This document shows, in pieces, positions 33,083 through 53,863 of a stretch of 64,000 nt of DNA. A program made the position numbers and the translations under genes. Below the pieces are notes generated by a model that did not search any database, was not told the origin of the DNA, and saw nothing but the letters and a program-made list of their open reading frames with translations. The first letter of the stretch is position 1, and the number at the start of each line of letters is the position of its first letter. The stretch lies in contig JAQMWT010000081.1 in assembly GCA_029834535.1 (NCBI GenBank), positions 216,750-280,749 on the forward strand, read 5' to 3'. The DNA comes from Chrysophaeum taylorii (Eukaryota; Sar; Pelagophyceae; Pelagomonadales; Pelagomonadaceae).

Positions 33083-36000
33083 TCATTCTGGTTGTTCGAA
33101 AGGTTCGGCGATGCAGACATGACCGTCGTCGTCGTCGTCATGATCCGCCGCGATGTCGTCGTACTCGGCGATGCCGACTCGACGTCCGCTGCCGTGGCCG
33201 TCGCAATCGCTCGGATATTCGTGGCGAACTTTTGCAGCGGGCGAGAGGGCTTTGCCCAACTTGGAGATGACGCGACTGTTGTCTGTGATGGATGCGGAGA
33301 ATCTCCGCGAGGATACGGAGATTCTCCGCGAGGATGTCACCGACAATTCTGCGACGAGTTTGAGCATGGTAAGCTCGCGCCTCGAGTCGCGAACGATGAG
33401 GTAAATCGTACACGCGATGCCGAGGACAACGAGGAAGATCATGAAGCCACCAACAGCCGAGCTCGCCTCGGTGAAATCGGCGGCGATGCAGAAGGTGCAG
33501 AGGAGGGCTATACTCATGATGCCGTGTAGGATTTCGGCGAGATTATTGTCGGCGTCTTCGATAAACGGAAGGAACGAGCCGTAGGCCTTGGTAGAGATGA
33601 GGGCGAGCAAGAACATGAAGAGCGCGCGCGTCGCCTCGTTTTCCGAGACGATGGCGGCGACAGAGGTTATGAGGAAGCGATGAATGCAAACGAGGACTTC
33701 GAACATCCAAAAGCCGGGGCGATAGACGGCGAAAAGAAGCTCGAGGTGTACTATCGACTTGTCGTTGGAGCGGAGCTCGACGGCGGCATTGTTGAGGTCG
33801 CGGTCGGCATCAGTCTTGGGAGGCCTCCAAGTTGGGCGTTCGCAGTAGACCATTGGACAAATGCGATAGCGCGAGCGGTACAAAAGCAAGCAGAAGCAGG
33901 CAGGAATCCCGACGACGTGCGTGAGGACGGCGGCGGCGGCAATGAAAGACCACGTGACGTAGGTCGGGCCGCGGCACTTGAGGGCGAGGTCCATGGCGAG
34001 GTATTCTTCGCGGGCGACGCGGCCAGCAGCACTGGTGGTCGGCGAATCGTACGATACGCACCAAAAGCAGCCGATGATTGTCGAGGCGATCGACGGGTAG
34101 GTGACGAAGACGATGAGCAGCATGGCACGAATGACATTCGGCGAGGCGTTTGCTACCGAACGCGCGGTCGCCGCCGCGAGGTCGTTGGCAATGAGAGTGT
34201 TGGACTCCTTCAATGATCCCAAGAACTTGGACCTTCGGCGGCCCTTGATGGGCATCGGGATCGGATTTGGCGGAGGCGGATCGTTGCGATGCCAGTATTT
34301 GTAGGCGACGTTGAGGGCTAGGAGCCAGGCACACGCGACGACCGGCCCGCAGACGGAGGAAAAGAGACGATCAAAGTACGAATTTCGCGCGTTGTGGTGA
34401 AGGCAGTTGACAGGAATGTTGATCGACGCGAGGAAGCTAAGCGAGGTGGTGATGACGAGGTAGTTGTTTGGAAGACGGACGTTTGCGATTTGGGGCGTCG
34501 CCACAAGGATCTGGAAGACAACGAAGAGCGTGCGCCACTTCTCGGTGAGACGGCCAATTCGGCGCGACATCTTGGCTGTTGTCCTCAGGGCTGTCTCCCT
34601 GGTCAATATGATTTTGACCGTGTAGTACGCCATGACGAAGAAGGCGCCGCAGACGAGCGCGAGCTTGAGTCCGAACGCCAAACTCGGGGGCAATCCGCAT
34701 TTTTTGCACTGGTCGCCGTCCCTATACGACGCGCGGCGGCATGCCGCGCAGGTCGGACCGAGGGCATCCGAGTCCTCGGCACACCGGATTCGCCCGACGT
34801 CGCCGTTGCAGGCGGGGTTATTTTCGCCGCCGGAGCATTCGACTGGCTTCCTGGACCACGCACTCTGGCGCATGAAGCCCCGCTCGAGCGCGAGCGTCGT
34901 GAGTATGCGATCGGGCACGAGCGGGACCTCCTTGTCGTTGCATTTCATTCCCGAGACGCATTCTTTACAGCCGTCGTCTGGCGTCCAGTACTCGTCGTCG
35001 TCGCATTCTTGACAACGAGAACCGGAAACAACCTCGCCCGGAACGCACGCCCGAAGGAATATCGAGACTGCGACCTGCGACTCGCGGACGGTCCTCGAGG
35101 ACGTGTCGACGACGACGTCGATGGTCGTGTTGGGCTCGTACGTGACGACGAGCGTGTCGAAGATTGCGGCGCCCTCGAGAAATTGGGCGAGGTTTGAAGC
35201 GACTTTGGCGCCCGTGGGTTTCGAGACCGTTATGGATGCGGTCTCGTCGACGCCGATGGCGAGCTGGCCGTATTCGTCCTCGAGGACGACGGTGACGGGC
35301 GTCAACGCGCGGCCGTCGCTTTCCGAGACGTACGGAGCTTCCGCCGAGCGCAGCACGCGTGGTGGTGTCGCGATGTCCTGGCCGAAGGCCGCCTTGTTGG
35401 TGTTTCGTACGACGGTGGCAATCGAGAGACCTGTGGGCTCGTTGTCCGTCCAGAAAAAGGCGCCGCCGCCGCGGAGCGCTTCGTTCTCCTCAAAAACGTT
35501 CTTCGAACTTCGAACCGTCGGATCGGGAACGGCAAAGGTCGCTGACACTTCGTAGGGGTTGTCTGGCTCGAACACAAGGGCGTCGACCACCAGGTCTCGT
35601 CCCCCAACCGCGTCGACGACAACCACGGTGAGCGAGCCCCCATACCAACCGTTTCCGGTCGTGCTCTTCGCGACGACCGAGTAAGTTTCGCCGGCGTCGA
35701 CGTAGACTTCGTGGATGTTCACCGCGTCCGCCGAGGGCTCGCCGACGGTAATGGAATCTTCTTCTGCGCTCCCGAATTTCCGAAGCTCCACAAAATTCTC
35801 TCCCGAGGGGCAGACGCAGCCGTCGCACGCGTCCAAAGACACGGACGACCGAAAACCCGGGCAAACGTTGATATCCGAGTCGCAGGTCGCGTCCTCGTCC
35901 TTTTGTTTGCATTTGACGGATGTTGTGGTCCAGTCGATATAAACAACAACGCGCACGGAATTGGTCGGCTCGAAGTCGATTTCTGACAGCTCGCCGTTGT

Positions 36001-39000
36001 ACACGGCGCCGCCGTCGACGGCGCTATTCGTCGCAAAGTACGTCGCTCGGACAGACACGATCGACGTCGTGTCCGCGGCGAGGCCACCGCCGAGAGTTCC
36101 CGCAACGTTGGAGATGAATGCCGACGAGGCAACCAGCACCCCCATGTCGCACCGATCGAAGAAGCAGGCTCCGCCCTCCTCCGTCGCTTCGTTCGAGGTA
36201 GCCGTCACGTTGTACAGCGCCACGTCCTCGGCGACGGTGCTGGCGAAGAACCCGCCCTGCGTTGCACGATTGGCCGTCGCGACCGTGTGGTTCACCGTCG
36301 TCAAGCTCAGAACGCCAGCGTGGACTCCGCCGCCCTGGCGCAGCGCGACGTTGCGAGCGAACGAGCCGCCGACGAGCTCGCACTCGCACTTGGTGCCGAC
36401 GCTGACGGCGCCGCCGTAGTTGGCCTGGTTCTCCGTGAACTCGACAGCCGCGGCGTCAGACACCGAAAGCAAGCTCGACTCGTCGGCGACGTAGACCGCC
36501 CCGCCGCTACCAGAAAGTGCCGCGTTCCCCTCGAACGCTGGCGGCGTCGTCGTCGACGACGACGACGAGATCGCGAAGGTTGCCGCACGTTCCGTGTGCT
36601 TGTTGTTCTCCAGGGTGTAGTCGGCCTGTTCGACGACAAGATCCTCGATGATGTCGATGCCGAGCGCCTCGAGAGCCCAGGTGCCAGAGTTCCAGGACTT
36701 GCCCCTCGCCGCGCTCGTCCACGCCTCGTACGCTCCCGGCGGAAGGCAGTACATCTCGCTCACCACGCTCCCCATCTCGGGCCGCGCCACCGTCGAGACA
36801 TGGATCGCATCGCTCCCGAGACGTCGCGCCACATTCGTTTCGTCCGTCGACGCGATCCAGAAAAGCGAGTCGACGCTGTTATCGCTCGACGCCGCCTCGA
36901 AGTCCAAAGTCACGCGCACGCATCCCTTGTCGCTCGCCACGACGAGGAGGCTCTGTTCCTCGACAGCGACAGCGCCTCCTCCGCTGCCCAAAGCGACGTT
37001 TGCGATGAACGACGAGCCCCCGGCAACGTGGAGCACGCTTCGCGTCGCCGACACGGCCCCGCCGTTGTTGTCGGCCGAGTTGCTCGCGAAGCGACTTGCT
37101 CGCAGCGATGCCAACGACCCCTGGCCCAAAGCGAGGGCCCCACCACGGTCGCCGGCCAACCCTCGGACGATTTCGACGCCTTGCATCGAGACCGACGCAC
37201 CGCTACCGGCGTCGATCGCGCCCCCGTCGCCGCCCGCCGCGACGCAGTCCTCGAAAACGCTATCGACGATCTCGACGTCTGCGCCCCCGGACACCAAGAT
37301 GCACCCGCCGTTCGTCGAGGCCGTGTTTTCTGAAAATTTGCTCGACATGATGCGAAACGACATCCGAGACCCGCCAGCAAGGATACCGCCGCCGTTACCG
37401 CTCGACGCGCACTCTTCGACGCTGACGCCGTTCAGGACCACGTCCCCGAAGATCGCCATAGCACCACCCCCGTAAACCGAATCGCTCACCACCGAGCACC
37501 GCCGAAAGATCGTGTCCTCCAACACAATGGGGGCGATGGTCACGCCGTATATGCCGCCTCCACCCAAGCCGCCCAGAGTCGAGCTCTCTTCGACCGCCGA
37601 GCGAGCTATAACGAGCCGGGCCGCGTACACTACTTTGACCGTACCACCACTTTCGCCAGCAGAGGATCGTGCGATCCTTGAGTCGAAGACCTCGACGCTG
37701 CTAGAACGGTGCCCAAAGAGCGACCCACCCTCGTCAGCGACGCAGTCCGTCAGGCTCGACCCGTTTACGACGAGCGCTCCCCCTAAATAGGCAGCCATGC
37801 AACCGCCTCCGAACGTCCCGTCCAAGGACGTCCCGCGCGCCAACGTCGACCCCTTCTCGACAATGACTGTGCCCGCTGTGGTCGAGATGCCGCCGCCCGA
37901 AAGCGCCGTCGCGTCGACGATCGACGAGTTCGACGAGCGAAAGAGTCCGCCGACGTAGACGTAGACAGCGCCACCCCACGTCGACGCAGCATTATCCATG
38001 CGAACACGCGTCAACGTCGCCCTCGCACCTGTCCAAACGCTGATTGCGCCACCATATATCGCTGCGGTACATTTCGACAAGACGACGTCCGTCGCGACCA
38101 ACGTCGCGCGACCGCCGACGAAGATGCACCCCCCTCCAATGGTATCATCGTGGCCGTCGACGAGCGACATCGACTTCAAATCGAGCGCCGCGCCGCTACC
38201 AATGCCAATCAGACGATGACTACCGCGACCTCTCATCGCGTGCCCTCCGCCATCAACGGTCGTCTGAGCAGCGACGAACCTTAACTCCCCCGCGAGAACC
38301 ACGTCAGCGGCCACCAGCACGGACACGCACGCGTCGTCACCACCAACAGCCTCGCGCAGATCCTCTTCGTCCTCCACCGTGATTGTTTCGAATTCATCGA
38401 CCGTTGTCTCACACGCGCTCGGCAAAACCGCCGAATCCGCGCACTCGTCTTCGCCGCAAGAGCAAGACGCCTTCCCGGCACGCGCGAAAATGATCCTCCC
38501 AAACCCGCTCGTCGACCCCGCGGTATTGTGAGCTAGATCAGAGCACGCAACGCCTAACCAAGCATAGTCGGCGCAAGTCTTGTTAGCCACCAAACAACTT
38601 TCCACCTCCAAGGTCTCCTCCTCGACCAGCGGCGGCGGCGGCGTCGTCGTCGTCACGTTCTGACGAGAAGATGCATTCATCGATGCCGTCAACCGCCGCA
38701 GCTCGTGGCATGCCGGGCACGTGCAGTTCAGCTCAATCTCCAGCAGCGTGCACGTGAGTGGCGAGGATAGCGCGACCGGACACAAGTCGCAGTTCAGCGA
38801 TGATGAAGTCTTGAGGTTTTCGCTTGCAATCACGCCGAGCTTCCATGGAGCTTGGACGAGTGCAATCGTGCCGAGGATCCGTGCCAGCAACGCCATTGCG
38901 TCCGCACAACTTTGGAGCAAAGTGCTACGATGGAGCTTGGGCGTGCGATCACAATAGAGCACATCAACTGAAGGCAAGTTGAACGCCCACGTAGGACCGG

Positions 39001-39010
39001 AGTCATACAT
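33083..39010 (-). CDS. giant polymorphic-membrane-protein-like (Pmp) 7TM surface protein
   Basis: 1975 aa from the ATG at 39010. A clean signal peptide begins at Met39 (MALLARILGTIALV; ATG 38896), which may be the true start. Residues 250-1260 are built of short repeats with GG[A/G/C][I/V] and FxxN motifs (for example GGGAMAIFG, FSENTASTNGGCI, FASNSADNNGGAV), as in chlamydial Pmp and beta-helix adhesins. Residues 1320-1430 are a Cys-rich block (CQECDDDEYW, CKECVSGMKC, CAACRRASY). About seven membrane segments follow (about 1440-1880), then a Ser/Arg-rich cytosolic tail. This is probably a surface adhesin or sensor. The C-terminal half is paralogous to the partial gene at 62896-64000. Confidence 0.82.
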   Translation of the reverse strand: MYDSGPTWAFNLPSVDVLYCDRTPKLHRSTLLQSCADAMALLARILGTIALVQAPWKLGVIASENLKTSSSLNCDLCPVALSSPLTCTLLEIELNCTCPACHELRRLTASMNASSRQNVTTTTPPPPLVEEETLEVESCLVANKTCADYAWLGVACSDLAHNTAGSTSGFGRIIFARAGKASCSCGEDECADSAVLPSACETTVDEFETITVEDEEDLREAVGGDDACVSVLVAADVVLAGELRFVAAQTTVDGGGHAMRGRGSHRLIGIGSGAALDLKSMSLVDGHDDTIGGGCIFVGGRATLVATDVVLSKCTAAIYGGAISVWTGARATLTRVRMDNAASTWGGAVYVYVGGLFRSSNSSIVDATALSGGGISTTAGTVIVEKGSTLARGTSLDGTFGGGCMAAYLGGALVVNGSSLTDCVADEGGSLFGHRSSSVEVFDSRIARSSAGESGGTVKVVYAARLVIARSAVEESSTLGGLGGGGIYGVTIAPIVLEDTIFRRCSVVSDSVYGGGAMAIFGDVVLNGVSVEECASSGNGGGILAGGSRMSFRIMSSKFSENTASTNGGCILVSGGADVEIVDSVFEDCVAAGGDGGAIDAGSGASVSMQGVEIVRGLAGDRGGALALGQGSLASLRASRFASNSADNNGGAVSATRSVLHVAGGSSFIANVALGSGGGAVAVEEQSLLVVASDKGCVRVTLDFEAASSDNSVDSLFWIASTDETNVARRLGSDAIHVSTVARPEMGSVVSEMYCLPPGAYEAWTSAARGKSWNSGTWALEALGIDIIEDLVVEQADYTLENNKHTERAATFAISSSSSTTTPPAFEGNAALSGSGGAVYVADESSLLSVSDAAAVEFTENQANYGGAVSVGTKCECELVGGSFARNVALRQGGGVHAGVLSLTTVNHTVATANRATQGGFFASTVAEDVALYNVTATSNEATEEGGACFFDRCDMGVLVASSAFISNVAGTLGGGLAADTTSIVSVRATYFATNSAVDGGAVYNGELSEIDFEPTNSVRVVVYIDWTTTSVKCKQKDEDATCDSDINVCPGFRSSVSLDACDGCVCPSGENFVELRKFGSAEEDSITVGEPSADAVNIHEVYVDAGETYSVVAKSTTGNGWYGGSLTVVVVDAVGGRDLVVDALVFEPDNPYEVSATFAVPDPTVRSSKNVFEENEALRGGGAFFWTDNEPTGLSIATVVRNTNKAAFGQDIATPPRVLRSAEAPYVSESDGRALTPVTVVLEDEYGQLAIGVDETASITVSKPTGAKVASNLAQFLEGAAIFDTLVVTYEPNTTIDVVVDTSSRTVRESQVAVSIFLRACVPGEVVSGSRCQECDDDEYWTPDDGCKECVSGMKCNDKEVPLVPDRILTTLALERGFMRQSAWSRKPVECSGGENNPACNGDVGRIRCAEDSDALGPTCAACRRASYRDGDQCKKCGLPPSLAFGLKLALVCGAFFVMAYYTVKIILTRETALRTTAKMSRRIGRLTEKWRTLFVVFQILVATPQIANVRLPNNYLVITTSLSFLASINIPVNCLHHNARNSYFDRLFSSVCGPVVACAWLLALNVAYKYWHRNDPPPPNPIPMPIKGRRRSKFLGSLKESNTLIANDLAAATARSVANASPNVIRAMLLIVFVTYPSIASTIIGCFWCVSYDSPTTSAAGRVAREEYLAMDLALKCRGPTYVTWSFIAAAAVLTHVVGIPACFCLLLYRSRYRICPMVYCERPTWRPPKTDADRDLNNAAVELRSNDKSIVHLELLFAVYRPGFWMFEVLVCIHRFLITSVAAIVSENEATRALFMFLLALISTKAYGSFLPFIEDADNNLAEILHGIMSIALLCTFCIAADFTEASSAVGGFMIFLVVLGIACTIYLIVRDSRRELTMLKLVAELSVTSSRRISVSSRRFSASITDNSRVISKLGKALSPAAKVRHEYPSDCDGHGSGRRVGIAEYDDIAADHDDDDDGHVCIAEPFEQPE

Positions 39011-41317: not shown

Positions 41318-43017
41318 TCATTGGGGGGGAGCGTAGCGTGCTCGAAGGTCCTCGAAGGCGCGCTTCGCCTTGGCCGCGAGGGCAGCCGGGTCGCGGTCGT
41401 CGAGGGGGGCCGCGACGGCGTGGCAGGCGGGCGCGACGAGGACCGGGACGAGAGTCGCGCGAGCCGAGGCGGCGATGGTGGCGAGGTCGGGTTCTTCTTC
41501 TTCTTCTTCTTCTTCCGCAGCGACGACGACGAGGATGGATCGGCGCGCAAAGAGCTCGCTCGCGACGCGCTGGCGCGAGGCGGGAACCAGCTTTGGCCCG
41601 AGCGCGAGGACGTCAGAGAGCGAGGGTTTCCGGATCGCGACGGTCGCGTCGGGGACGAGGGCGTCGCAGGTGACCGCGAGACTGGGTCCGCGCAGGACAG
41701 TGGCGTCGACGACCGCGAGGAGGAGTTTGGGGGTGTCTGGTCGACGGAGGGCGTCGCGGTCGACGACGACCATATTCGACCTCGCTAACTCGGCGACGAA
41801 TCGCTTCGAGAAGGCGGGGTCGACGATGCGCGGGGGCATGAAGACGATGATCAAGGGCGCGAGGAGGAGGAGAGGCGGCGCGACGTAAAGAACAAAAGCG
41901 ACGACGACGAGCAAAGACGCGGCGGCGATTTTGAGTCGACGCGGATTCGCCGCGCGCGCCGCCGCGCGCCACCACGACGTTCCGGAACAACAACCCGGGG
42001 ACACGAGCTTTGAGGAGAATTGGCCGGTCATGATGTCGGCGCGCGCGACGGTGTGCTTGCGGTCGAGGACGGCGGTCGCGGCCGCCGCGCCGCCTCGCGC
42101 GACGTCGGCGGCGACGCCGGCCGCGTCCACGACGACCGGTCGCGAGACCGAGCCGCCGCGCTTCACCACAAACGCGAGATGACGGAGCGTGAGGGTCTCG
42201 TCGTACAGCAGCTCGGGGTCGACCACGACCCCCAGCCTCTCCTCGATCTCGGCGAGGAGGTGCATGCCCTCCATCGAATCCATTCCGAGATTCTTGAGCG
42301 GCTCGTCTCGACCGACCTCGTCTCGCTTGCCGACCTTTGCCGCAATCGCCTCGAGCTCCGACGCGAGGTCCTCGTCGCTCAGAAGAGAGCGTCGCGTCAA
42401 TGGTTTTTTCGGGGATTCATCTTCTTCTTCTTCTTCTTCTAAAAAGGTCGCGAGCACGGGCAGCTCGCCGGCCGCGAGCTTGAGCTTACAGGCCCGTCGC
42501 GCGATCTTGCCCGAGGTGGTTTTCGGGACAGTTCGCGCCGGCGCGACCACGAGCCGGGCGAGGCGGACGCCGTGCTCGCGCGCGACCGCCTCCCCCACGG
42601 CCCGCGCCACGCCTAACCCCAGAGACCCGTCCTTGGCCTCGACGACGAGCTCCACGCCGTCGTCCGAAGGTATGGCCGCCGAGCAGCCGGGCCGCAACGC
42701 GCCCCGCGAGGCATCCTCGGCCGTCTTCTCGAGGTCCTGCGGGTATACATTCTTGCCGCGCACGATCAGGAGGTCCTTGATGCGACCGCATATAAAGAGC
42801 TCGCCCTCGAACACAAAGCCGAGATCCCCCGTCCGGAGCCAACCCGGGCTGCCGTCGAGCGTTCCGCAAAACGATTCTTCGTCGGGGATATTGTAGTAGC
42901 CGCGCGCCATAGAGGGCGACCGCAGCCACACCTCCCCGACGAGGCCGTCCCCGATTCCGCGCCCCTCGCTCACGACGCGAAGCTCGATCGACTCCGGCGG
43001 AAATCCGCACCCGAACA

Positions 43018-43048
<31 letters not shown>

Positions 43049-44083
43049 GGAGCCGTTTTTCTCCACGACGCGACCCGCGCGGAGCTCGTCGGTGCTACAG
43101 TCGAGGCGCTTGACGCCGTTGGTGCAGACGAAGACCGTGTGCTCGGCGAGGCCGTAGGTGGGCCGGAGGGCTTCCCGCGGAAAGCTCGGGAAGGCGGCGA
43201 GGAAGGCGTCGACGTCCGAAGCGCGCACCGGCTCGGCCGCGTTGATCGCGTGTCGCACGCACGAGAGGTCGAGGGGGGGAGCGCTGGCCAAAGTCAGGTA
43301 CTTGCGGGCCGCGAGGCCAAAGGCGAAGGAGGGGGCCTGCGTGTGCGTCACCCGGAACTCGGCCATCATCTCGACCCACGACGTCGGTCTTCGAACAAAG
43401 TCTACGGGCGACGTATGGTATCCCCTACCGCCGCAATACGCCGTCCCCAGGTAGCTTCCGATGAGACCCATGTCGTGGTACTGCGGGAGCCACGACCCGC
43501 ACACCGTCTGCTGATCGGCCTCGAGCGCCCGCACGATCTCGCCCAGATTGTGCGACAGGTTGTCGCGGCAAATCACGACGCCCTTTGGCGCCGACGTCGA
43601 CCCCGACGTGAACTGGAGAAACGCCACGTCGTTTTCTTTTTTTTCTGTGCTGTTTCGTACCGCGGGCAGCGCGGCGTCGGTCGCAACAAAACTCATGTGC
43701 CGGAAAATCCCCCTTAGCCTGATCGCGCGCTCGTAGGCCGTCGTCGTCAGCGCCGTTTTCGCGCCGCACGTCTTCGACACCTGCTCGAAGGCCTCGCCGA
43801 CGGCGCCCCGGAGGTCCGGCGGGTACACCGGGACGGCCACCACCCCAGCCTTCAAGCACGCGTAAAAGGCGACGATGAAGTCGAGCCCCGGCGGGTAGCA
43901 CAGGAGGACGTGCGGACCAAAACCACCACCGAGCCCCCGGGCCACCTCCGCGCTCCTGGCCTCGAGCGCCGCGTACGTCAGCGATTCCTCGACCTGACCA
44001 CGCCCACCGAGGTACGTGTGCACGACCACGTCGGGCTGCGCCAATGCCCACGCCCGCACTTTCTCCAGCACATCATCGCGCAT
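41318..44083 (-). CDS. fatty acyl-AMP ligase with ACP domain and degenerate acyltransferase-like C-terminus
   Basis: 921 aa; the first ATG is at 44083. Residues 1-560 are an adenylate-forming enzyme: FTSGSTSAPKG (about 156), SWLPQYHDMGLIG (typical of FAAL/FadD32-like ligases), TYGLAEHT, GWLRTGDLGF and GRIKDLLIVRGKN. It should activate a fatty acid as acyl-AMP. Residues 570-650 are an acyl-carrier domain with the phosphopantetheine serine in GMDSMEG (about 600). Two hydrophobic stretches (about 717-751) follow, then about 150 residues resembling a PlsC-type acyltransferase (ATLVPVLVAP) without a visible HX4D motif. It may load acyl groups onto its own ACP for lipid or polyketide synthesis. It shares a 43-bp divergent promoter with the NDUFAF8-like gene. 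Confidence 0.88.
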
Positions 44084-51236: not shown

Positions 51237-52547
51237 TCACGAGGAGGGGTCATCGAGCGGGGGCTTGTCGAGGCCGACCATCGCCATGGAGAGGTCGTAC
51301 ATGTCTTTGGCGGTTTTGCCGTCGGCGGTAGATTGGGAGTATTGGTTCTCGAAAATGTCTCCGCCCGAGCCGCCGGCGCCGCGGACCTCCTTGGCAAAGG
51401 GGTCGTAGAGGCCGACTTGCTGGGCGTTGCCGTTCCAGCTCCAGTAGACGCCGGACTTGGAACAGACGGGGTCGTCGACGACCTGCTTGAGTCGCGAGCC
51501 GGCCTCTTCCTCGGAGACGTAGCCGCCGGTGACGTACTTCATGAAGTAGGGAAAGACCGTGCGGAACCATCCTCGTTTTTCTCTGAAGAGACCCGTCTCG
51601 GCGATGCAGCCCGGGTACAATGAGTTGAAGGTGATGCCGGTCTTGTCGTGGTAGCGGCGATGGAGCTCCTGCACGGTCATCATGTTGCAGACCTTGGAGT
51701 CCTTGTAGGCTTTGGCACCGAAGAAGGATCCGCCGTCGGCCATCTCGCTCCCCGTGCCCTGCTTGAAGCCATCGAGATTCCCGAGGTCGGCGCGCGGATA
51801 CACTAAACCCCCGCCGATCGTGTTCTGGTTGCCGGTGATGGATCCGACGATAACGACTCTAGCGTCGCTCGCGCGCTTCATATCCGGGAGAAGCAGTTGC
51901 GTCAACAAGAAGTGGCCCAAATGGTTGACACCCATCGTCATTTCGTAGCCATCTTCGGTGAATCGGGGTTTGGGGTCGGTGGGAAGGTAGACGGCGGCAT
52001 TGCAGACGAGGCTGTCGAGGGGTCGCGGACCCTTGAACGCCTTGAGATTGAAGACGAAGCTTCGCACCGATTTGAACGATCCGAGTTCGAGCTTCATAAC
52101 CGTGTACGAGTTCGGCGGGAATCCCATGTCCGAGGCGATTTTCTGTGCCTTCTCGACGTTGCGGCACGCTAGCACGACGTAATACTCGCCAGACTTGGCC
52201 AGCTCGTACGCGCCGTACAAGCCTAACCCCGAGGACGCGCCCGTGACAACCACGAGCTTGCGTGTCCCGATCAAGATTCCCCCATTCACCTTGGGAAACT
52301 GCGTCGAGCTGTCCACAGGCGGGTTCTCGAGTTGTGGTGCCTGCTTGAGCTTCTTCTTCTCTGAGGACGAGGGTTCGGGCGCCGTCACTGTCATCGTCGT
52401 GGCGACATCGTGGTGCGATGAGGTTCTCCTGACGCGAGACGAAGAGTGGTGGTGGTGGTGGAGCCGGGGCTCGTTCGCCACGAAGAACCCCATCGTCGTC
52501 CCCACCAAAAAGGTCAGGACCGCCATCCGAGGCGTCGTTGTCGCCAT
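51237..52547 (-). CDS. POR: light-dependent NADPH:protochlorophyllide oxidoreductase
   Basis: 436 aa. Reduces ring D of protochlorophyllide to chlorophyllide in light, in the plastid. The NADPH loop VTGASSGLG lies near residue 105, then NAAVYLP and NHLGHFLLTQLLLPDM follow. The active-site Y280-K-D-S-K284 is preceded by a lid segment, and FNSLYPGCIAETGLFREKR matches POR. The usual POR length without presequence is about 330, so about 95 residues are presequence. It contains MATTTPRMAVLTFLVGTTMGFFVA, a signal-peptide-like start, then a His/Ser-rich transit part, as expected for complex plastids. The start ATG at 52547 follows a non-ATG extension. It is divergent from the PhyH gene (152 bp between start codons). 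Confidence 0.97.
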   Translation of the reverse strand: MATTTPRMAVLTFLVGTTMGFFVANEPRLHHHHHSSSRVRRTSSHHDVATTMTVTAPEPSSSEKKKLKQAPQLENPPVDSSTQFPKVNGGILIGTRKLVVVTGASSGLGLYGAYELAKSGEYYVVLACRNVEKAQKIASDMGFPPNSYTVMKLELGSFKSVRSFVFNLKAFKGPRPLDSLVCNAAVYLPTDPKPRFTEDGYEMTMGVNHLGHFLLTQLLLPDMKRASDARVVIVGSITGNQNTIGGGLVYPRADLGNLDGFKQGTGSEMADGGSFFGAKAYKDSKVCNMMTVQELHRRYHDKTGITFNSLYPGCIAETGLFREKRGWFRTVFPYFMKYVTGGYVSEEEAGSRLKQVVDDPVCSKSGVYWSWNGNAQQVGLYDPFAKEVRGAGGSGGDIFENQYSQSTADGKTAKDMYDLSMAMVGLDKPPLDDPSS

Positions 52548-52581
52548 TTTTTTTTCTTCCAAGCCCAGGCTCCTCTCTAGA

Positions 52582-52587
52582 TGACGT
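52582..52587 (+). promoter_or_regulatory. TGACGT bZIP/aureochrome-type core between POR and PhyH genes
   Basis: TGACGT is the known core of aureochrome (blue-light bZIP) and other bZIP sites in stramenopiles. It sits 35 bp upstream of the POR start codon and 113 bp upstream of the dioxygenase start. GCCACGTAC lies at about 52667. A six-base match alone can occur by chance. Confidence 0.35.
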
Positions 52588-52699
52588 GCTCAAGTGCAAG
52601 CCAAGGGCAACAATCCCACAGGATCGCGAGTTCAATCAAACTACTTGTTGCTTACCCCCAGCCGTGCCACGTACATTGAACCCCCTAGGATTGCGCGCG

Positions 52700-53863
52700 A
52701 TGCGAGCTTTTTTCGTTCTCGCGTTGGGCCTCGTCGTCGCCTGGGCGTTCGTGCCCGTGGGGGACCAGGCGGTGAGACGAAGAGGAGGAGTCGTCGTGGA
52801 GGGCATCGACGTGAACGTCTGGGACTACGTGTGGGATCGACAGGACCCCAAGGTGGCGTTGCCTGAAGGCGTCACCGAAGATTCGGACCCCGCGCCCTTC
52901 ACAATCACCCAAGAGCAGATCGCAACGTTGAAGCGCGACGGCGTCGTCCACATTCCGGGGGTCCTGACGCCCGAATGGCTCGCCCACATCCGGGCTCTAA
53001 CGGACCACCAAGTCTCTCACCCTCACGTTTGGGCGTCGCCGGGCGTCGCCTCGGGCCTCTACGACTACGTCCAGCGCAACGTCTGGACGACGAACGACGG
53101 GTTTATGAAGTTCTTATACCATTCCCCCGTCTCCTCGGTTCTCGCCCACCTCGGAGAGGCTAAGACGTCGGTCCGCCTCACCACTGACCTCCTCATGGTC
53201 AACCCCAACAAGGGCTTCAAATGGCATCAAGACAACCAAAACGGCCCCGTCGGCTTCGACGACGCGCTCCGGTGGTGGGTTACTATGGACGACACCCCCC
53301 GCGACTACGGAGCCCCCGTCTACCTCCGACGCTCGCACGAAAACGAATTCGTCGACGACGAAGCCGTCTTCGTCTCTCTCGATCAGGGCGATCTTCCAAA
53401 ATATGCCGACGACATGCTCGAATTCCGTCCCAAGGCCGGCGACATGATCGTATGGCACGCGCGCACGATCCACAAGATTGACGGACCCGAATCCCAAGAC
53501 TGGGGTGATCGCCGCCGCCGCGTCCTCGGGGGCACCGTCGCCATCGACGACGCGAACTACAAGGACAAGCAAAAGGTCGAGTTTGCGGACATGGGTCGCC
53601 ACCAATTGAAGGACGGAGACCCCCTTACCGACCCACACTTTCCCCGCATCTGGCCGAGACCCGTCCCCGAGGAAAAGGTTGCTCGCTTTCAGGGCGCCGT
53701 CGGCCGCTCCGTGCCCGGCTTCGCGCGCATGCTCGGCGCCCTCTTTTCCTACAAAACCATCCAGCAATTCGGCTCGTGGGGTAACGTCGTCAAAATCGAA
53801 AAGCCCACCGCTGCCGACGACGACGTAAAATCCGCCGCCACCGCCCCCGCGAGGTCCCGCTGA
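52700..53863 (+). CDS. plastid-targeted phytanoyl-CoA dioxygenase-family (2OG-Fe(II)) enzyme
   Basis: 387 aa from the ATG at 52700. Residues 1-20 are a signal peptide ending AWAFVP, close to the heterokont plastid motif ASAFAP. The PhyH fold carries the iron ligands H-Q-D (KWHQDNQNG, near residue 175) and a distal His in IVWHARTIHKI (near 257), with RRRVLGGT holding the likely 2-oxoglutarate Arg. It should hydroxylate or desaturate a lipid-like or pigment substrate using 2OG and O2. It is head-to-head with POR over 152 bp, which suggests co-regulation with chlorophyll synthesis. Chlorophyll c synthase is reported to be a 2OG-Fe(II) dioxygenase that acts on protochlorophyllide, so a role in that branch is possible but unproven. 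Confidence 0.85.
   Translation: MRAFFVLALGLVVAWAFVPVGDQAVRRRGGVVVEGIDVNVWDYVWDRQDPKVALPEGVTEDSDPAPFTITQEQIATLKRDGVVHIPGVLTPEWLAHIRALTDHQVSHPHVWASPGVASGLYDYVQRNVWTTNDGFMKFLYHSPVSSVLAHLGEAKTSVRLTTDLLMVNPNKGFKWHQDNQNGPVGFDDALRWWVTMDDTPRDYGAPVYLRRSHENEFVDDEAVFVSLDQGDLPKYADDMLEFRPKAGDMIVWHARTIHKIDGPESQDWGDRRRRVLGGTVAIDDANYKDKQKVEFADMGRHQLKDGDPLTDPHFPRIWPRPVPEEKVARFQGAVGRSVPGFARMLGALFSYKTIQQFGSWGNVVKIEKPTAADDDVKSAATAPARSR

Follow-up and report, generated by a model that had tools for sequence, protein, structure and literature searches.

The 64-kb window analyzed here (the whole stretch of DNA, which is located at the end of contig C81 of a 70.8-Mb assembly) contains a plus-strand gene that is very probably this alga's chlorophyll c synthase (CHLC), the enzyme of the chlorophyll c branch. 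It is paired head to head with the gene for light-dependent protochlorophyllide oxidoreductase (POR), which would compete for the same substrate; the assignment is made from sequence. POR (51237..52547, minus strand) is an uninterrupted frame of 436 amino acids plus a stop codon, and the putative CHLC (52700..53863, plus strand) is a PhyH-type 2OG-Fe(II) dioxygenase of 387 amino acids plus a stop codon, recognized by its match to PF05721 and by its CHLC-type residues. The length of both frames, together with their matches to a curated family or to a protein of solved structure, shows that neither is an open reading frame by chance. The two ATG codons, at 52547 and 52700, are separated by 152 bp (52548..52699), a putative shared promoter. 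An earlier note on this DNA had described the divergent POR and PhyH genes with 152 bp between them, and the reading frames confirm it; the range given there, 52548-53863, spans the gap and the dioxygenase, with POR lying outside it.

In diatoms, brown algae, and related groups, chlorophyll c is one of the main pigments for light harvesting. A cell that makes it has to divide its protochlorophyllide between the chlorophyll a and chlorophyll c branches. CHLC is described as desaturating the C17 propionate of protochlorophyllide and POR as reducing protochlorophyllide at C17 and C18 (PMC13297055; PMC11879082). Because CHLC and POR act on the same molecule, both products of this locus would compete for one substrate. 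We propose that the dioxygenase is imported into the plastid and that, with Fe(II), 2-oxoglutarate, and O2, it would act on (divinyl-)protochlorophyllide, desaturating its C17 propionate to give the acrylate found in chlorophyll c, while POR would reduce the same substrate toward chlorophyll a. The two genes, which would encode the branch-point enzymes, diverge around one 152-bp region that may co-regulate the pair. The reaction is taken from the cited papers; we infer that this dioxygenase performs it here.

The dioxygenase matches the Pfam PhyH family (PF05721) with an E value of 4.9e-14 and a score of 53.6 bits (cut-off, 22), which gives it the 2OG-Fe(II) domain expected of a CHLC. It was compared with a proven CHLC by means of published residue positions and spacings. 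Section 5.1 of PMC13297055 gives the active-site residues of the Phaeodactylum tricornutum enzyme as Y162, R167, H216, D218, R231, W233, H298, and R312, a list that derives from an AlphaFold3 model. Counterparts of all eight are present in the window protein, six at an offset of 40 residues and two at an offset of 41, so that one single-residue length change accounts for the whole set. The pair at offset 41 is Y121 and R126 (53060..53077, plus strand, as are all the following), corresponding to Y162 and R167, which contact 2OG and protochlorophyllide. At offset 40 are H176-Q-D178 (53225..53233; H216 and D218), the expected iron ligands; R191 and W193 (53270..53278; R231 and W233); H258 (53471..53473; H298), an iron ligand that follows H176 at a distance of 82 residues, the same as in CHLC; and R272 (53513..53515; R312), a 2OG contact 14 residues after H258, again as in CHLC. 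The text and a legend of PMC13297055 disagree on whether H216 or D218 is the iron ligand besides R231 and H298, and the window protein has the counterparts of both (H176 and D178). The H-Q-D/H iron ligands reported in the earlier note were thus found as H176-Q-D178 and H258, and its proposal of a candidate chlorophyll c-branch enzyme is supported by the eight P. tricornutum CHLC residues and by spacings that are absent from the other PhyH proteins examined.

Seven bacterial relatives, comprising six of the 24 plasmid records found and one further locus, were used to separate family-wide residues from those typical of CHLC; the bacterial relatives among the matches listed are ∼24 to 29% identical to the dioxygenase. 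H176, D178, W193, and H258 are kept in all seven and R272 in six, meaning that the wider family shares five of the eight CHLC residues and that the iron site (H176, D178, and H258), being family-wide, is not specific to CHLC. Y121 and R191 are replaced in 7/7 relatives, with S or T at the position of R191, and R126 sits in an insert that all seven lack. The spacing between the two histidines is 82 in the window protein and CHLC versus 85 to 98 in the seven relatives, and that from histidine to arginine is 14 versus 8 to 11. Within the genome, PF05721 has 33 matches, the window dioxygenase included. The joint CHLC residue pattern at fixed offsets occurs in none of the 32 others, a set that includes partial frames (one of 127 amino acids) and one protein without the HxD motif. 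A six-frame protein search, in which the best candidates were scored, found no second close CHLC-like copy, the next match having an E value of 1.3e-3.

Direct comparison of 40 proteins placed bacterial proteins nearest to the dioxygenase (L050, 29% identity, E = 5e-19), and the nearest paralogs from the same genome were L024_C64 (25%, 2.5e-8) and then L022_C531 (20%, 2.4e-7). The tree of these 40 proteins joins the dioxygenase to L032_C157, which lacks the HxD motif, with support of 89/87. This pairing was flagged as one of long branches, and the position of the dioxygenase in the tree is not reliable. No viral or phage relatives of the dioxygenase were found at the limits used.

The identity of the minus-strand gene is clear. 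Its top solved match is chloroplastic POR B (E = 1.4e-103), and it carries GxxxGxG as GASSGLG, YxxxK as YKDSK, and, within PGCIA, the PGC cysteine, which we take to be the catalytic one. A signal-peptide-like start, MATTTPRMAVLTFLVGTTMG (52488..52547, minus strand), followed by FFVANEP, was recognized by eye. GxxxGxG, YxxxK, and a catalytic Cys are the features by which light-dependent POR is defined in PMC4337275. The genome has eight POR-like matches, and the next best after the window POR, L012, is 42% identical to it and carries a leucine at the position of the PGC cysteine; the residue check covered these two proteins, the remaining six matches being weaker and mostly partial. L012 (G000:C344:66250-67005, minus strand), an SDR that resembles POR and has a start of the plastid type, may belong to the POR-like SDRs whose function is not known.

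The genes for PsaA and PsaB identify contig C697 (103.6 kb) as plastid DNA, and this contig also carries a Fer4_NifH-family gene that is very likely the chlL gene of LIPOR. PMC4337275 reports an association in stramenopiles: those that lack LIPOR have retained two PORs, and some of those that possess it have retained one. This fits the present genome, with its chlL-like gene and a next-best POR match that has Leu for Cys. If LIPOR is complete, chlorophyllide could be synthesized in the plastid in the dark, as judged from this one gene. The closest entry to PsaB is 9YGV (1502 bits), the giant kelp PSI-FCP (PMC13219633), and the next entries, one of them from a cryptophyte, score 1490. There are 84 LHC matches in the genome; one of them was tested, and its closest relatives are fucoxanthin chlorophyll a/c proteins. 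By these similarities, the genome probably belongs to a photosynthetic ochrophyte whose antenna genes are of the fucoxanthin-chlorophyll a/c type. Clusters of fucoxanthin-chlorophyll protein genes on G000:C88, C539, and C390 have equal family scores and close spacing and are therefore probably recent copies.

Four divergent gaps were measured by hand between the longer open reading frames, small ones being ignored; the one of 152 bp is the shortest, and the others span ∼1.1, 1.6, and 2.6 kb. Elsewhere on the minus strand of the window, positions 41321-44083 encode an NRPS-like enzyme with AMP-binding and phosphopantetheine carrier domains, and positions 33086-39010 hold an open frame of 1974 amino acids with no Pfam match at an E value of 0.001.

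The gap was searched for words shared with the promoters of antenna genes. Upstream stretches were fetched for 40 of the 84 LHC matches; six lacked a start codon, 34 were used, and 25 remained after the removal of near-copies. The 61 control promoters comprised 46 of 49 from PhyH (32), SDR (5), and window genes (12) and 15 of 16 from proteasome genes, those lacking a start or enough flank having been dropped. Near the center of the gap, AGGATCGCGAGTTCAA (52620..52635, plus strand) includes both GATCGC and GTTCAA, which rank among the six 6-mers with the strongest enrichment in the LHC promoters of the genome, although they are weak evidence for the gap itself. GATCGC occurs at most 150 bp from the start in 15/25 LHC promoters versus 5/61 controls, and it is found in 7 of 15 divergent LHC genes. 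A role as a general photosynthesis element was rejected, as the word is present in 3/9 non-LHC plastid genes versus 4/15 proteasome promoters. GATCGC is enriched at LHC genes, but it is not a proven regulon mark. A score built from LHC words, chosen without regard to the gap, gave a mixed outcome that depends on the cut-off: the score of the gap was reached by 2/61 controls with the top 6 words, 16/61 with the top 10, 40/61 with the top 20, and 10/61 with the top 40. Given this mixed result, the fact that GATCGC had been spotted in the gap by eye ahead of its enrichment test, and the unclear picture at non-LHC plastid genes, we treat GATCGC in the gap as a lead. As a separate observation, the word A/G-GATC-G/T is found at up to 150 bp from the start in 20/25 nonredundant LHC promoters (L062-L101) versus 10/61 controls, which makes it a candidate promoter element for the antenna genes of this alga.

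The gap also contains TGACGT (52582..52587, plus strand), presumably a bZIP/aureochrome-type core. The word occurs at 1.90 per kb in LHC promoters versus 0.505 per kb in plain genomic background, and it shows no enrichment in LHC promoters over control promoters (3/25 versus 5/46 within 100 bp of the start and 4/25 versus 8/46 within 150 bp). Aureochrome-type control through this word therefore found no support.

These results bear on whether the arrangement has a function. The gene could be CHLC and its head-to-head pairing with POR accidental, with separate promoters inside the gap. The occurrence of GATCGC in some control promoters, the mixed outcome of the unbiased word test, and the lack of TGACGT enrichment over controls all suit such an accident, which we regard as a serious contender, though at somewhat less than even chances. 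Against it stand the shortness of the gap relative to the other three divergent gaps and the fact that the sole POR with all diagnostic residues (two of the eight matches checked) adjoins the sole CHLC candidate found. Co-regulation of POR and the dioxygenase, as put forward in the earlier note, is weakly suggested by the LHC-enriched GATCGC in mid-gap. Shared regulation of the two genes through the gap may exist. A fuller version, in which the gap is a true bidirectional promoter, linked to the antenna regulon via GATCGC and fixing the proportion of chlorophyll c relative to chlorophyll a through joint expression of the two competing enzymes, with the pair perhaps an old unit conserved in some ochrophytes, we consider doubtful.

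The dioxygenase begins with a signal-peptide-like start, MRAFFVLALGLVVAWA (52700..52747, plus strand), followed by F-V-P, a putative plastid-import motif, so that the AWAFVP presequence noted earlier was again seen, by eye. An A/S-(x)-F motif within residues 9 to 28 is present in 32/34 LHC presequences of the genome, many of them near-copies. A second PhyH protein, L024_C64 (G000:C64, ∼1640-2250), also combines a signal peptide with a plastid-type start (ASGAF) and is without the CHLC residues; it is possibly a plastid 2OG enzyme of unknown role. Plastid targeting is therefore not specific to CHLC.

The window dioxygenase might be a 2OG enzyme that serves a different plastid pathway, such as mycosporine-like amino acid, carotenoid, or lipid hydroxylation, and stands beside POR by chance. 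Its best solved matches, SnoK, MysH, and SnoN (E = 4e-10 to 4e-9), include no pigment enzyme, and L024_C64 illustrates a plastid-type presequence in a protein that lacks the CHLC residues. However, where CHLC and the window protein share an arginine, R191, MysH has K and SnoK has T in two alignments, and all eight CHLC residues and both spacings fit the window protein, which makes an enzyme of another pathway improbable. A CHLC-family paralog with a shifted substrate, such as a modifier of another chlorophyll c form, is also conceivable, since active-site matching does not distinguish close substrates, and chlorophyll c3 is described as also needing a change at the 7-methyl group (PMC11879082). 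Yet an alga with chlorophyll c needs one CHLC, and the genome search found no second CHLC-like gene, so we give a shifted substrate very little credence. The alternative of a peroxisomal PhyH enzyme (PAHX or PHYHD1) found no support, as neither appeared among the 11 solved sequences matched by the dioxygenase up to an E value of 10, and a positive control, the best PhyH match of the genome (C45), matched PHYHD1 at 4.5e-40.

Published CHLC residues can pick one candidate out of 33 PhyH matches in one genome, and the locus offers a clean, testable branch-point pair. One short DNA stretch may help to set the balance of chlorophyll c and chlorophyll a; if the promoter is shared, control of this split would be directly testable with one 152-bp fragment.

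CHLC itself has been known since 2023. It was found via knock-outs of candidate genes in P. tricornutum (PMC10820777), and the enzyme of that diatom is attributed to Jiang et al. 2023 in PMC13297055. The window protein resembles it in being a 2OG-Fe(II) dioxygenase with all the residues listed there and the same spacings of 82 and 14, and it differs by one residue in the distance that separates the Y/R pair from the first histidine. A dinoflagellate CHLC from Breviolum minutum, attributed to Jinkerson et al. 2024 in PMC13297055 and PMC12743301, shares the 2OG-Fe(II) dioxygenase catalytic domain but, as described there, adds a chlorophyll a/b-binding domain, for which Pfam gave no match in the window protein. 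SnoK, SnoN, and MysH, the nearest solved sequences, are PhyH-type oxygenases as well, and SnoK and MysH depart from the window protein at R191 as given above. No POR-CHLC gene pair was recognized in the literature searched, which did not include the CHLC discovery papers, and such a pair may already be in print. For the gap, the closest parallels come from Nannochloropsis oceanica, in which the VCP2 and Ribi promoters are bidirectional (PMC5785352). According to that source, these drove genes or came from co-expressed pairs, whereas the promoter function of the window gap is putative; like the gap, they are intergenic regions between divergent genes of an ochrophyte, and one of them lies between antenna genes.
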